Shown here: piece by piece, positions 22,780 through 63,404 of the stretch
Position numbering within the stretch: the stretch's first letter is position 1
Layout of the letters: the number at the start of each line of letters is the position of its first letter
Source of the DNA: Gemmatimonadota bacterium
GTDB taxonomy: Bacteria; Gemmatimonadota; Gemmatimonadetes; Gemmatimonadales; GWC2-71-9
Direction of reading: 5' to 3'
Length of the DNA: 64,000 nucleotides
Assembly (NCBI GenBank): GCA_040388535.1
Contig: JAZKBR010000002.1
Location: forward strand, 1,210,838 to 1,274,837
Notes under the pieces: model-generated
What the model was told of the DNA's origin: nothing
The model's input: the letters and a program-made list of their open reading frames with translations, nothing else
Database searches by the model: none
Made by a program: the position numbers and the translations under genes

Positions 22780-22918
22780 ATGAAGGGGGAAGGGATCACT
22801 GGGAGCGTTGTCACCCTGAACGAAGTGAGGGGGCGGAGTTCCGGCCCACAACGGCGCTTCGCACCCTCGCTACGCTCAGGGCGACAAACCCTTCCCCCTT
22901 CTCCCTTCCCCTTCTGTC
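22780..22918. repeat. composite repeat: TGTCACCCTGA palindrome inside an inverted purine array
   Basis: An imperfect palindrome runs from TTGTCACCCTGA (22808) to CTCAGGGCGACAA (ends 22887). It is bracketed by GAAGGGGGAAGGG just after the peptidase stop and by the inverse CCCTTCCCCCTTCTCCC next to the regulator stop. The palindrome is the same family as those at 28342, 48586 and 51640. Confidence 0.7.
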
Positions 22919-23573
22919 ACGTCCCATCCGCCGGTGTCTTGAGCAGTTTCGCGTGATCATTGGCCCAGCGGATCAGCTGGCCGCGGGTGCGGAGGCCGGT
23001 TCGCGCATACAGCTCGCTGATCCGTGATTCGACCGTCTTGACGGCGCGGGAGATGGTCCCGGCGATCTCGGGGTTGGATCGGCCGTCGCGGATGAGGCGA
23101 AGCACTTCGAGATGCCCGTGATTCAGGGTGATCCCGCCGATCGTGACTGAGGCCTTGAGGTCGGGGCGACGCCCCGGCCGCGGCCCGGGTGGTCGATAGC
23201 TATCGGTCACCAGTTGCAGCGCCACCACCGCGATATCGACGCCGGCGCGACTCTTGGCGACGTAGGCCGCCCCCGTTTCGCGGACTCGCTCGACAATGAC
23301 TCCCTCTTCCGACGCGCTGATGACCAGGATCGGTATCGGGTGCCGCTCCATTCGGAGTGCCCGCAGCAGTGGCATTGCGCTCTGTTCTCCGAAGGCGAGG
23401 TCGAGCACTAGCAGGTCGGGCCGGGCCGACTCGATTGTCGGGCGGATCTGGTCGAGTTCCGTGACAATGAAGGTGTGACACCCTTCGTCGCGGAGAATGG
23501 TTGCGACCCCTTCAGCGAAGAGGCGGTGATCGTCGGCGATCACGACGGTGCGACCAGCGAGCGGGCCGGTCAT
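22917..23573 (-). CDS. LuxR/NarL-family response regulator
   Basis: A 218-residue regulator. The receiver domain has the acidic pair in VVIADDHRLF (about 13-15), the phospho-acceptor Asp in LLVLDLAF (about 57), ISAS and the conserved Lys in YVAKS. The DNA-binding domain lies at about 150-212: LEVLRLIRDGRSNPEIAGTISRAVKTVESRISELYARTG, shown here as a standard four-helix LuxR HTH. It overlaps the kinase gene by ATGA, so it is the output of the four-gene operon starting at 25244. The receiver-to-HTH linker is Pro/Arg-rich. Confidence 0.9.
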   Translation of the reverse strand: MTGPLAGRTVVIADDHRLFAEGVATILRDEGCHTFIVTELDQIRPTIESARPDLLVLDLAFGEQSAMPLLRALRMERHPIPILVISASEEGVIVERVRETGAAYVAKSRAGVDIAVVALQLVTDSYRPPGPRPGRRPDLKASVTIGGITLNHGHLEVLRLIRDGRSNPEIAGTISRAVKTVESRISELYARTGLRTRGQLIRWANDHAKLLKTPADGT

Positions 23574-24313
23574 CTGGTGGTGGCGAGCGGAAAGTGCGCG
23601 TGGACGCTGGTCCCCTTCCCCGGCTGACTGCTGATGTGCAGCGTGCCGCCGAGCGCACTCGCGCGTTCGCGCATGCTGCGCAGGCCAAGGGAGGCGAGCT
23701 TGCCATCGGCCGGGACGACGAAGCCGTGGCCATTGTCGTGAATCTTGATGTCGATGCCGAACGGCGTAGCGTCGAGGCTCACGTTGACCTGGGTCGCGGC
23801 CGCGTGACGGCGCGCGTTGTTGACGGCCTCCTGGACGATGCGGTAACCGGCGAGTCGATGCGCGAAGTCGAGGTCAGGGAGTTCGCCGGCATCGAGGGTC
23901 ATCTCAAACGCATCGGTCGACTCGGTCGCGAAGAGCTGCTGGAGCGCGTCGGCGAGCGGGAGATGATCGAGCGTTGCGGGATGCAGCCCGCGACTCAGGG
24001 TCCGCAGCTGCATCGCGAGCGCCGACGCACGCTCGGCGCCGTCAGCGCTACCAGCGCGACGGAGTTCCATTCCCATCGATTCGAGCAGCGGCACGACGCC
24101 GTCGTGGAGTTCACGGGCGATCCCGCGACGCTCCTCCTCCTGGCCGTCGAGCAGCCGGCGGCCCCATGCCACGGCCGCGCGGGTGCGGTCGCGCTGGACG
24201 GAGTTGATCGCCCAGTAGAGCACCGCGGCCATCGCGAGACCGAGGCCGACGGTGAGGGTGAAAACCCAGATCAGCGGCCCCAGGTTACGCTCCGTTTCCA
24301 GTATGGGATGCAC
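23570..24313 (-). CDS. HisKA_3-type sensor histidine kinase with one membrane helix
   Basis: About 247 residues. A single helix (LIWVFTLTVGLGLAMAAVLYWAI) is followed directly by the phospho-acceptor box ARELHDGVVPLLESMG, typical of NarX/DesK-like kinases, and a HATPase domain (EAVNNARRHA, IHDNGHGF, SLGLRSMRERASALGG, GKGTSVHAHFP). It has no sensor domain of its own, so the upstream membrane protein probably senses the signal. GTG at 24313 overlaps that gene by 43 bases; the start has no good Shine-Dalgarno sequence and a nearby codon cannot be excluded. Confidence 0.82.
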   Translation of the reverse strand: MHPILETERNLGPLIWVFTLTVGLGLAMAAVLYWAINSVQRDRTRAAVAWGRRLLDGQEEERRGIARELHDGVVPLLESMGMELRRAGSADGAERASALAMQLRTLSRGLHPATLDHLPLADALQQLFATESTDAFEMTLDAGELPDLDFAHRLAGYRIVQEAVNNARRHAAATQVNVSLDATPFGIDIKIHDNGHGFVVPADGKLASLGLRSMRERASALGGTLHISSQPGKGTSVHAHFPLATTR

Positions 24314-24939
24314 CAGAGGATGAGCGCCACATAACTGAAAGTCTGCGAGACGCGGTATACCATCATTGCGGCGGACCGTGACGTTTGTGCGAGCGCATTG
24401 ACTATTGGAGAGGTGCCTAGAGCTGGCGCGCTGGCGAGCACCAGCCCAAAGCCAAGCCATGCCTCGGGTTTCGACCATGGTGAGTCGTCGCTTGAGCGGA
24501 TAGCCTCGGCCACCAGGAGTATGCCGATGCTCAGGCCAACGAAAGATTCACCTGGAGAAGTGTATTTGGAATAGAACTCGAGACCGTCGCCCCCGGCGGT
24601 TAGCAGGGCCCAGAAGATGGCAAATACCATCATACCCACCAGAATGGCGCGCCGCTGACGTTGGTCCGACAGCAAGAGATAGCCTGTGAGTCCGAGCAGC
24701 ATCGCGGAAAACAGGTCGTACCAGTGAAAGAGATCATGATTATTGATGCTGTGCATTCCCATGAGGAACGCGAGAACGTTGGACGCCGCTCCGAGGACCA
24801 ACCACCATGCGAAACTCCGGGCGCCCGGAGAGGGGGGGACGCGCACCCATACGGCGATGGCTACCACCACGCTCAATGTTATTCCGATGTTGGGGAGCAA
24901 CCGAGTGGCGGAGAAGACGAAATCCCAATTCCAGGTCAT
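24271..24939 (-). CDS. seven-helix membrane protein, putative sensor partner
   Basis: A 222-residue protein with about seven hydrophobic helices: residues 15-32, 42-61, 73-91, 97-115, 131-146, 161-178 and 190-212. I do not recognise the family. The ATG overlaps the stop of the small Cys-motif gene (ATGA) and its end overlaps the kinase start, so the three are translated together. Base composition is visibly less GC-rich than in flanking genes, which hints at transfer. Role as signal receiver for the kinase is inferred from the operon only. Confidence 0.75.
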   Translation of the reverse strand: MTWNWDFVFSATRLLPNIGITLSVVVAIAVWVRVPPSPGARSFAWWLVLGAASNVLAFLMGMHSINNHDLFHWYDLFSAMLLGLTGYLLLSDQRQRRAILVGMMVFAIFWALLTAGGDGLEFYSKYTSPGESFVGLSIGILLVAEAIRSSDDSPWSKPEAWLGFGLVLASAPALGTSPIVNALAQTSRSAAMMVYRVSQTFSYVALILWCIPYWKRSVTWGR

Positions 24940-25244
24940 GCGACCGGGGACATCAATGGTGAGCCCTCGTCGCAGTCAAAGGGACATGGGCCACATTTTT
25001 CCGCGATGGTGCCAGTAATGAGATCCTTGCCAGTCGCGTCCGTGCCGATCCACACAAGTCGCTCATCGCCCGAAACATTTCCAGCATAGACCCGAATGCT
25101 AGCGCACTCTGGGTTCTTGAGGATCTCCTCAATAATCTCGCGCGGAAGCTTCCACGCCCTGCGCTCACCAGGGTGCTCCTTCTGCCACGTGTGCGTGTAC
25201 TCGATCGCCTGCGCGAGCGTGATGCGATGGTCGTCGGCCGACAT
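24936..25244 (-). CDS. small cytoplasmic Cys-motif protein, first gene of a sensor operon
   Basis: A 102-residue protein; ATG at 25244 chosen for GGAG eight bases upstream. No signal peptide. Order of features: a helical N-terminus (ITLAQAIEYTHTWQKEH), LPREIIEEILKNPECASIRVYAGN, a strand pair (RLVWIGTDATGKDLI), then a C-terminal cluster EKCGPCPFDCD with three Cys as C-x-x-C-x-x-x-C. From memory, small proteins of this outline with a terminal CPPxC-like motif are frequent in Bacteroidota and lack a known function; I could not verify this. The Cys cluster may bind metal or be redox-active (inference). Confidence 0.7.
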   Translation of the reverse strand: MSADDHRITLAQAIEYTHTWQKEHPGERRAWKLPREIIEEILKNPECASIRVYAGNVSGDERLVWIGTDATGKDLITGTIAEKCGPCPFDCDEGSPLMSPVA

Positions 25245-25609
25245 GGGGTACTCCGGGGAGTAGGCGTTCAGGGGTCGCCAAAAGAGTAGGTTGCCGATGT
25301 CCAAAAGGAAACAAGGGAAAACCCTGAATATTCGGAATTAAACGGGCGAGCGTGGAATCGCTCTAACCCAATGTCAGTGCGGCTTTTTAGGCAATTATTG
25401 ACCGAAAAAAGCGTCAAAAAGTCAGGGTTTTCCCTTGCTTGACTCGCTCAGCGGGAGACGCATCTTGATATCGTCTGCAGCGAGTCCCCCCAGGGGTTGG
25501 CCCCTTGACCCTGGGTGGGACGTGCAGCCTGAACAGCAGGATGATGGATGACAGATGACAGATCTTGGATCCGTGATTCGACCATCCGTCAACTGTCATC
25601 CGTCAACTG
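25245..25609. other. AT-richer intergenic region with inverted repeats
   Basis: No gene is seen. It contains the 16-bp inverted repeat pair at 25312-25437, a CCCAGGG/CCCTGGG dyad (25489-25515) and the heptamer arrays next to the MoxR stop. The promoter of the minus-strand sensor operon must lie here, probably between 25250 and 25440, but I cannot pick -10/-35 boxes with confidence. Confidence 0.6.
25312..25437. repeat. 126-bp element with perfect 16-bp terminal inverted repeats
   Basis: CAAGGGAAAACCCTGA at 25312-25327 is the exact reverse complement of TCAGGGTTTTCCCTTG at 25422-25437. Each arm is itself a partial dyad (AGGG-AAAA-CCCT). The 94 bases between are AT-rich and non-coding. No target-site duplication is visible. 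It could be a MITE-like remnant or a pair of regulator-binding sites. Confidence 0.6.
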
Positions 25610-25615
25610 TCATCC
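25541..25615. repeat. inverted heptamer array (GATGACR) at the MoxR 3' end
   Basis: ATGATGGATGACAGATGACA at 25541-25560 is mirrored by GTCATCCGTCAACTGTCATC-type units at 25588-25615. The inverted copy runs into the stop codon of the MoxR gene (25610-25612). Confidence 0.7.
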
Positions 25616-26644: not shown

Positions 26645-26762
26645 AATGATGGATGACAGATGACAGATGACGGATAACGGAAAAGGGTCCCGAGCCCGGT
26701 ACGGTCAATAAGGTATACGGGACGGTCGCATCGACCATCTGTCATCCGTCATCTGTCATCCG
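26645..26762. repeat. inverted heptamer arrays upstream of the MoxR gene
   Basis: GATGGATGACAGATGACAG-type units at 26645-26679 are mirrored by CATCTGTCATCCGTCATCTG-type units at 26735-26762. About 55 bases lie between, including a repeated ACGGTC. Together with 25541-25615 they flank the MoxR gene on both sides. Confidence 0.7.
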
Positions 26763-28310: not shown

Positions 28311-28613
28311 TAGCTGGATGATGGATGACAGATGACGGATCTGTCACCCTGAGCGAAGCCCGCGAAGCGGGCGCAGTCGAAGGGGCGGAGCTTCGCTCCC
28401 TCGCTTCGCTCAGGATGACAAGCAGAGGTAGGACACCGCACCGCCCGATGCATCCAACGGCGACTGCGTTTCCAATCGGCGATCGTCGCTGATTGCGGGA
28501 GCTGGACCTCCGGGTCCGCCGGCTCCCATCGACTGGCCACCGTTCCTGGGGAGACGGTGCACTGGCCGAGGATGCAAATGACAATTGATCCTCACTGAAA
28601 CGACGAGTTGAAA
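28311..28613. other. repeat-rich gap inside the ATP synthase cluster
   Basis: No gene. Contents in order: a heptamer array (28316-28337), a TGTCACCCTGA palindrome (28342-28420), and a hairpin GGGAGC...GCTCCC (28497-28527) with an inner GGACC/GGTCC stem. The hairpin could set differential expression of atpE or be a processing site. No promoter stands out before atpE. Confidence 0.6.
28342..28420. repeat. TGTCACCCTGA-type imperfect palindrome
   Basis: Starts TGTCACCCTGAGCGAAGC and ends CGCTTCGCTCAGGATGACA; inner parts also pair (CCCGCGAAGCGGG, GGAGCTTCGCTCC). Same family as 22808, 48586 and 51640. Preceded directly by heptamer units GATGGATGACAGATGACGGA. Confidence 0.75.
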
Positions 28614-48585: not shown

Positions 48586-48664
48586 TTGTCACCCTGAACG
48601 AAGTGAGGGGGCGGAGCACCGGTCCGAACGGCGCTCCGCCCCCTCGCTGCGCTCAGGGCGACAA
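48586..48664. repeat. TGTCACCCTGA-type imperfect palindrome
   Basis: Runs from TTGTCACCCTGAACGAAG to CTGCGCTCAGGGCGACAA, with the inner arms GGGGGCGGAGC / GCTCCGCCCCC pairing. It lies between convergent genes and may end transcription from both sides. Confidence 0.75.
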
Positions 48665-51602: not shown

Positions 51603-51794
51603 AGCGGGTGATGGGTGATGGGTGATGGCGAACGCGAGCTGTCATCCTGAGCGAAGCCCGCGAAGCGGGCGAAGTCGAGGGAGCATCCTCTCACCGTCGA
51701 GACCAGCTCCTTCGACTGCGCTCGCCTCCGGCTCGCTACGCTCAGGATGACAACTTCCCATCACCCATTACCCATCACCCGTCACCCGTCACTC
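51603..51794. repeat. composite repeat: palindrome bracketed by inverted heptamer arrays
   Basis: GGGTGATGGGTGATGG units (51605-51628), a long TGTCATCCTGA palindrome (51640-51752) with inner pairing (CCCGCGAAGCGGG; a GCGAAGTCGAGGGAGC-type segment against GCTCCTTCGACTGCGC), then CATCACCCATTACCCATCAC units and degenerate CACCCGT units to 51794. Confidence 0.78.
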
Positions 51795-60877: not shown

Positions 60878-61197
60878 AGAAGCCCAACGCCGCGAGGAGG
60901 CGGGATCTTACTGGAAAGGATGACGGATGACAGATGACGGATGACAGATCCTAGATGACAGTTGACGGATGACGGATGATGAATCGACCGGCGGAGGTAT
61001 CTGTGTTCAAGATGTGTTAGCCGTGCAACTAAATCACGCCGCAGGTCAGCGGCAGCCTGAAAGGCCCGTACTGTGGCAGGAAACAGACATTTAGTTAGAC
61101 GCATAACCAAACCTTGCCACGCTGACCTCTCCCCCTAAGTTGTCCCCATCTGCCATCCGTCATCTGTCATCTGTCATCCGTCATCCAAGGACCTCCC
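60878..61197. other. repeat-bearing spacer between the sigma gene and glnN
   Basis: No gene. GATGACR arrays at 60918-60983 and their inverse at 61147-61187 flank about 160 bases of AT-richer DNA. Inside are inverted arms AACTAAAT (61027) and ATTTAGTT (61089) about 62 bases apart, with a GCCTGAAAGGC stem between them; GTTAGAC follows the right arm. The right array ends ten bases before the GTG of the glutamine synthetase gene. Confidence 0.65.
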
Positions 61198-63346: not shown

Positions 63347-63404
63347 ATCCCGAGCGCAGCGAGGGATCTCACCCTGAGCAGCCTGCGCTGAGCTTGTCGA
63401 AGGG

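Follow-up and report, generated by a model that had tools for sequence, protein, structure and literature searches.

In the UhpABC system of Escherichia coli, as outlined in PMC7607045, a separate membrane protein, UhpC, senses the hexose-phosphate cue and stimulates the membrane kinase UhpB. LiaFSR, in the account given in PMC3543457, consists of an accessory membrane protein, a kinase, and a regulator, and its activation induces its own locus. Here we describe a four-gene cassette, S-M-K-R, in a 64,000-nucleotide stretch of DNA from a Gemmatimonadota bacterium (assembly GCA_040388535.1, contig JAZKBR010000002.1, positions 1,210,838 to 1,274,837 of the forward strand; hereafter the window, with positions counted from its first base). 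S is a small protein with a cysteine motif, M a seven-helix membrane protein, K a kinase, and R a LuxR-type response regulator. We favor, with moderate confidence, the interpretation that the cassette is a split-receptor two-component system, in which S and M form the receptor that drives K and R.

The four open reading frames (ORFs) are located on the minus strand, span 25244–22917 in the order S-M-K-R, and each overlaps the next. S (24936–25244; 102 amino acids [aa]) was assigned to an unnamed family from the ORF list, family alignments, and a model, and M (24271–24939; 222 aa) was assigned as a membrane protein from the ORF, a model, loop charges, and fold comparison. K (23570–24313; 247 aa, one N-terminal helix) and R (22917–23573; 218 aa) were assigned from Pfam domains. 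The ORF coordinates bore out the overlaps described in a sequence-only reading of this DNA, namely a 4-base ATGA at S/M and at K/R and 43 bases at M/K. The last value applies to the GTG start of K at 24313, which is uncertain because the ORF is open up to an ATG at 24478. The same reading spoke of a three-part system, which we correct to a four-protein cassette.

In Pfam searches, K matched HisKA_3 and HATPase_c with 27.1 and 51.3 bits (cut-offs, 24 and 26.4), and R matched Response_reg with 49 bits (cut-off, 30.2) and GerE with 23.7 bits, just above the cut-off of 23.5. Judged by these domains, K and R are assigned to a two-component system with a HisKA_3 kinase and a LuxR-type regulator, the latter as predicted earlier. 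In a survey of 59 loci, one or two helices preceded the catalytic part of the kinase (51 and 8 loci, respectively). The proposed lack of a sensor domain held for K of the window, whereas the kinases at L077, L087, L091, and L096, as judged by eye, apparently have PAS-like regions for input. The Geothrix cassettes contained a different, HisKA-like kinase (read by eye), and most others contained a HisKA_3-type kinase. Because the kinase type varies while S and M stay, these results suggested an input module, S-M, to which different kinases can be joined.

The AlphaFold2 model of M had exactly seven helices, as the sequence-only reading had counted, with a mean predicted local distance difference test score (pLDDT) of 89.3. 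Over 39 members (M and 38 relatives), lysine plus arginine residues averaged 2.5 in loop 1, 2.3 in loop 3, and 2.7 in the C-terminal tail; loop 5 had 1.6, and the N-terminal tail and loops 2, 4, and 6 had about 1.0 each. Since positive charges favored loop 1, loop 3, and the C-terminal tail, M was predicted to be N-out/C-in. In the VIA structural comparison, all 50 matches listed for M were G protein-coupled receptors (GPCRs) or GPCR-like proteins or designs, with Z scores of 10.8–13.6, root mean square deviations of 3.7–5.6, and 196–217 of the 222 residues aligned; the top match among those listed was a designed GPCR-like fold (Z = 13.6). The best Foldseek match of M had an E value of 0.18, and no sequence relative of M was found in the PDB set (best E, 0.8). 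The PDB is rich in GPCRs and helical bundles reach such Z scores by common arrangement alone, and the GPCR-like helix arrangement of the M model is suggestive only. The 39 members had no Pfam match at E ≤ 0.01, except for one weak match to EamA.

S of the window carries the tail C84-x2-C87-x3-C91 (EKCGPCPFDC), in which the codons of CPxxC (C87-P-F-D-C91) occupy 24972–24986 on the minus strand. The C-terminal CPxxC was almost invariant: of the 107 unique S domains left after fragments under 85 aa were set aside, 104 contained it. The family alignment showed conserved PGC-x-G-x-R-x-Y, VGVD-x2-G, and CPPxC motifs. The C-x-x-C-x-x-x-C tail noted previously is thus present in S of the window, but relatives do not share its first cysteine; C87 and C91 alone are kept in the family, and the whole CxxCxxxC was rejected as a family motif. 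S therefore possesses, in CPxxC, the conserved cysteine pair looked for in a thiol or metal sensor. Three S domains lacked this cysteine pair, though the operon has M or an M-like gene (L108, L109, and L252). A joint site of S and the cysteine that closes helix 7 of M was rejected, as that cysteine occurs in only 53%. CPxxC may resemble the copper site of Sco proteins.

The model of S consisted of two helices and a beta hairpin (mean pLDDT, 88.7). No usable fold match for S was found with Foldseek (best E, 0.1) or VIA, whose top match, the copper protein CopG, had a Z score of 3.0; both were too weak. A solved relative was also rejected: three single-sequence matches had E values below 1, the best being a designed repeat protein (E = 0.0025), and the best profile match had an E value of only 0.49. 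Neither S nor M, singly or with relatives, belonged to a Pfam or NCBIfam family, in agreement, for S, with its earlier description as unnamed; the only matches at E < 0.01 among their relatives were one member each to EamA, TIGR02611, and rmlA. Most S proteins begin directly at the domain with no export signal. Putatively exported versions occurred at no fewer than seven loci (L085, L086, L087, L091, L100, L112, and L115) and tandem or fused copies at six (L055, L060, L061, L063, L066, and L067). Proteins with two S domains and no adjoining M were seen at L226:1366-2244, L251:4649-5527, and L112:5845-6642, the last, from Hyalangium, starting with a signal-like segment. Two weak S matches, G103:C27:176815-176988 and G103:C27:3239-3421, each contain an internal stop codon and are perhaps decayed copies.

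Profile searches of 298 genomes of the phylum detected strong S matches in 31, strong M matches in 30, and both in 29 genomes; weak matches (S in G103 and G207, M in G005 and G007) were set aside and would raise the first two counts to 33 and 32. Single-sequence searches of the same genomes detected S in 30 and M in 7. By these profiles, two genomes had S only and one had M only. An iterated profile recovered M in both S-only genomes, G158 and G169 (L054 and L057), and the M-only genome G087 holds M-K-R (L205). One further genome, G185, had the order M-K-R-S on one contig (L204). M was next to S at 29 of 30 S loci in the phylum, and all four genes were present at 24 (profile or phmmer); the remaining six loci lay at contig ends (L044, L055, and L058) or had no K or R match (L048, L054, and L057). 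The named scan yielded 47 loci in Gemmatimonadota, Bacteroidota, Ignavibacteria, Geothrix/Holophagaceae, Zixibacteria, Edwardsbacteria, and a Hyalangium. M was found by profile in 40 of these and a six-helix ORF stood in its place in four (L098, L099, L108, and L109); one locus was cut by the contig end (L092) and two were without M (L112 and L115).

Of 147 genomes in the family of Chitinophaga polysaccharea, 90 had S and 129 had M (E ≤ 0.001), and a single genome held as many as eight matches to M and six to S. Of 30 Chitinophagaceae-family loci, 28 had M by profile, one had an unmatched seven-helix ORF (L210), and one had none (L226). When ten M loci chosen for having no listed strong S were inspected, eight had a diverged S with CPxxC directly upstream; the surplus of M over S is therefore, at least in part, due to missed S. 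The other two had a 98-aa protein with a CPNPPGC tail and a 185-aa lipoprotein. This lipoprotein (L282:3072-3626) stands ahead of M, K, and R, where S would normally be, and may be an exported, far diverged S. A plasmid collection searched for S gave no match. S directly before M, followed by K and then R, is the rule across phyla. The co-occurrence of S and M, raised as a check in the sequence-only reading, was thus established in 29 genomes, with M adjoining S nearly everywhere, and a chance neighborhood was rejected because the identical gene order recurs across phyla.

Pairwise distances of S and M, with K and R held constant, were correlated (r = 0.31, p = 0.0005; 59 loci with all four genes), whereas S did not co-vary with K (r = 0.07, p = 0.15) or R (r = 0.09, p = 0.09). 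M co-varied with K (0.37) and R (0.31). In 74 pairs whose R proteins were 50–95% identical, the median identity was 0.46, 0.31, 0.55, and 0.62 for S, M, K, and R, respectively, indicating that M is the fastest diverging of the four proteins. Eight loci duplicating other contigs (L071–L076, L082, and L084) were left out of the divergence comparison and of a survey of neighboring genes. The S-M co-variation and the steady S-M pairing favored S as the partner of M.

Upstream of the operon, the window contains two inverted copies of a 16-bp dyad, TCAGGGTTTTCCCTTG, 110 bp apart (0 expected). The proximal copy (25312–25327, minus strand) and the distal, inverted copy (25422–25437, plus strand) lie 68 and 178 bp upstream of the S start codon, respectively, and both are proposed R sites. 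In the phylum, a perfect dyad of the form CTnnnn-N4-nnnnAG was present in 13 of 31 upstream regions vs. 8 of 1101 control segments (shuffle mean, 0.15); all 13 dyads fall between −78 and −142 relative to where the S domain begins, and their inner bases vary by lineage. Among 65 upstream regions of all phyla, 24 had a perfect 6-4-6 dyad vs. 7.5 in shuffles (maximum of 20 shuffles, 13). For these counts, duplicates and upstream regions shorter than 150 bases were left out, and shuffling was by two-base blocks, not strict dinucleotide. Two Chitinophaga operons carried a CGTA-N4-TACG form twice, 160 bp apart. Because the dyad is enriched before the operon, R probably autoregulates its own operon via the dyad, apparently by feedback on the promoter from which R itself is expressed.

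In five genomes (G199, G176, G228, G257, and G029), the sole CTRGGGNNNNCCCYAG site was the one before S; the reversed control of CTRGGGNNNNCCCYAG gave 1 to 11 sites per genome, so that the position is informative and the number is not. A CTRGGG-type pattern showed no excess in number in ten genomes (5, 0, 1, 1, 1, 0, 4, 1, 0, and 1 vs. 2, 3, 1, 1, 3, 4, 4, 3, 1, and 11 for the control) and stood out by position alone. The pattern CTRTMANNNNTKAYAG had 15 sites in five other genomes vs. 0 for its reversed control, and five of these were in the operons' own promoters. As judged by eye, the ten sites elsewhere were before exported proteins (L268, L270, L275, and L277), DNA-binding regulators (L269 and L272), and a Tc/SpvB-like ORF (L273), or had no clear target (L271, L274, and L276). 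The R-type site of L275 (G125) is followed, in this order, by genes for an exported peptide of 92 aa that is rich in cysteine, for a thioredoxin/DSBA-like protein (Pfam E values, 1.5e-20 and 3.4e-17), and for a 395-aa protein, and the target at L277 is a six-bladed propeller lipoprotein (DUF5128). The large ORF of L273 (L273:4083-8498, in G120), which we take to resemble Tc/SpvB-type proteins, begins approximately 150 bp after the R-type site. A regulon in the window's genome was rejected, as a one-mismatch pattern gave 24 forward and 21 reverse sites vs. 22 and 21 for the control, with no excess. At L166:4288-8244 in the same genome (G000:C2), a palindromic TCAGGGAAAACCCTGA lies 160 bp before the gene for a low-GC (guanine plus cytosine) 486-aa lipoprotein, and further exported proteins without a Pfam match are also present; this site is only a candidate.

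A MauE-like membrane protein adjoins the cassette in six Chitinophagaceae-family loci (L237, L242, L245, L254, L255, and L256), most of which also have small exported peptides and thioredoxin-like proteins nearby. The MauE, DUF6520, and AhpC-TSA assignments held up on one example each; another DUF6520 match fell below the cut-off and a third peptide had no match. Together with L275, these examples, picked by eye and without a background rate, connect the cassette in two phyla with disulfide chemistry and with exported peptides that contain cysteine.

In the split-receptor mechanism that we propose, with S and M as the likely input, as the sequence-only reading also supposed, M would be a stand-alone seven-helix receptor in the inner membrane and S a small folded protein binding or reporting to M. 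K would be a minimal membrane kinase and, having no sensor domain of its own, would depend on M for input. K would phosphorylate R, and R would bind the 16-bp dyad in its own operon promoter, providing feedback, and in some genomes would also bind before a few exported-protein genes. We infer the physical contact among S, M, and K, the direction of signal flow, and the binding of R to the dyad. Several observations weigh against this mechanism. M-K-R units without S exist (L070, in the window's genome, and L205), so that S is not always needed, and S-type proteins without M also exist (L112, L115, and L226). A hydrophobic N-terminal segment is present at at least seven S loci and usually absent, which leaves the compartment of S ambiguous. 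The dyads of the window pair at 5 of 6 positions without the outer CT/AG, and are a variant that is not among the 13. The co-variation matrices share phylogeny and S is short, so the correlation is support rather than proof.

A narrower form of the split receptor would make S itself a thiol, redox, or metal sensor, in which CPxxC changes state and S drives M-K, an idea already raised in the sequence-only reading. For the cue, our leading guess is a thiol- or metal-based signal that CPxxC would read, and the sensor as a whole is a tentative possibility: it is consistent with the near invariance of CPxxC, the MauE-like and thioredoxin-like neighbors, and the cysteine-rich peptide and DSBA-like protein of L275, but the cysteine pair is absent from S of L108, L109, and L252, and the neighbor links were chosen by eye without a background rate.

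Alternatively, S could be an output or feedback effector rather than an input, in a LiaFSR-like self-induced operon where S possibly restrains M-K. The dyad lies before S, and in the five genomes above the sole CTRGGGNNNNCCCYAG site is found there; in Bacillus, activation of LiaR upregulates liaIH and the whole lia locus, as described in PMC3543457. However, S shares a transcript with the sensors throughout and its sequence co-varies with that of M, neither of which an effector would require, and five other genomes have R-type sites away from the operon. We consider this alternative unlikely.

S might also be a protein ligand, or autoinducer, of M that is exported, sensed by neighbors, and raises its own expression via R. 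The autoregulatory promoter, the S-M co-variation, the fast divergence of M, and the tandem, fused, and exported versions of S agree with such a role, which is nevertheless quite improbable, since most S proteins have no export signal and S is a conserved folded domain, not a variable peptide. Broader still, and likewise quite improbable, would be a bacterial GPCR-like class in several phyla, comprising a stand-alone M, an encoded partner or ligand S, a separate kinase in the role of the G protein, and an autoinducing loop controlling exported cysteine-containing peptides and thiol-disulfide enzymes. A defense system was rejected, as the four proteins had no PADLOC match. An ordinary kinase-regulator pair beside two unrelated genes is hardly tenable: K and R do come from very common families, but the recurrence of the four-gene order in several phyla and many diverged loci contradicts it.

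Beyond the four genes, no conserved neighbor was general among the surveyed loci. An extra conserved gene of about 250–310 aa directly follows R at six loci of the phylum (L060, L061, L063, L066, L067, and L206), and a conserved protein of about 284–299 aa starting with MSYLLIGNISALI is encoded divergently to S at L101, L102, L104, L111, L116, and L246. L070 (L070:5085-7820, in G000:C1 of the window's genome) is a second unit of this kind, M-M-K-R; its two M genes stand in tandem, and neither S nor a dyad precedes them.

GC content was below 0.585 in just three 1-kb segments of the 64 kb, starting at 24251, 24501, and 24751. Third-position GC was 0.70 in S and M, 0.83 in K, and 0.78 in R, and 0.82–0.88 in four neighboring genes, so this genome does have the lower GC described earlier for the first two genes and the DNA before them. 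Across 24 other loci of the phylum, mean third-position GC was 0.82 in S and 0.84 in M (that of K being partly spoilt by overlapping frames); the dip was not seen there, and low GC was rejected as a trait of the S-M families. Elsewhere in the window, intergenic GGATGACA-type repeat arrays occur at 25539–25615, 26651–26761, 28316–28336, and 60918–61186, often as facing inverted arms; GGATGACAGWTGAC had 19 matches with at most two mismatches vs. 0.75 expected. The arrays look like small mobile or REP-like elements. A second intergenic repeat, of the CCTGAGCGTAGCGAGGG type, is located at 22815–22880, 28398–28414, 48593–48657, 51730–51746, and 63349–63365 (7 matches vs. 0.34 expected), with facing pairs at two places.

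M and S, present in most genomes of one Bacteroidota family (129 and 90 of 147), yet have no Pfam or NCBIfam model, and such genomes would hold several signaling systems without an assigned input. A defined cassette with a detached receptor makes these inputs testable and would show how a sensor can be supplied in trans to a kinase lacking one. Within the terms searched, no name for such a cassette was found in the open-access papers covered.

Like UhpABC, the cassette has a separate membrane protein and a kinase, and UhpB was the second-best NCBIfam match of K, but its 93.8 bits compare with a cut-off of 408. UhpC is MFS-type (major facilitator superfamily) and UhpB has eight predicted helices, as outlined in PMC7607045, whereas M has seven helices and no MFS match, and K has one helix; the cassette also has the additional S protein. 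With LiaFSR, it shares an accessory membrane protein together with a kinase and a regulator. LiaF is an inhibitor in the account of PMC3543457, whereas M would be a receptor in the proposed mechanism. K matched Strep_LiaS with 74 bits, against a cut-off of 450, and none of the 39 M members matched a LiaF-type Pfam model. We know of no Lia counterpart of S. The 7TMR-DISM proteins resemble M in being bacterial seven-helix receptor proteins used in signaling, but the 39 M proteins had no match to Pfam seven-helix receptor models (E ≤ 0.01). In addition, 7TMR-DISM receptors are usually fused to an output domain, whereas M is on its own polypeptide. M resembles GPCRs in its seven helices and N-out/C-in orientation, as predicted from the model and the loop charges over 39 members, but has no sequence relation to them in the PDB set. 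By analogy, the S-M-K-R cassette would work like UhpABC and LiaFSR, through an accessory membrane protein, and is a member of neither.

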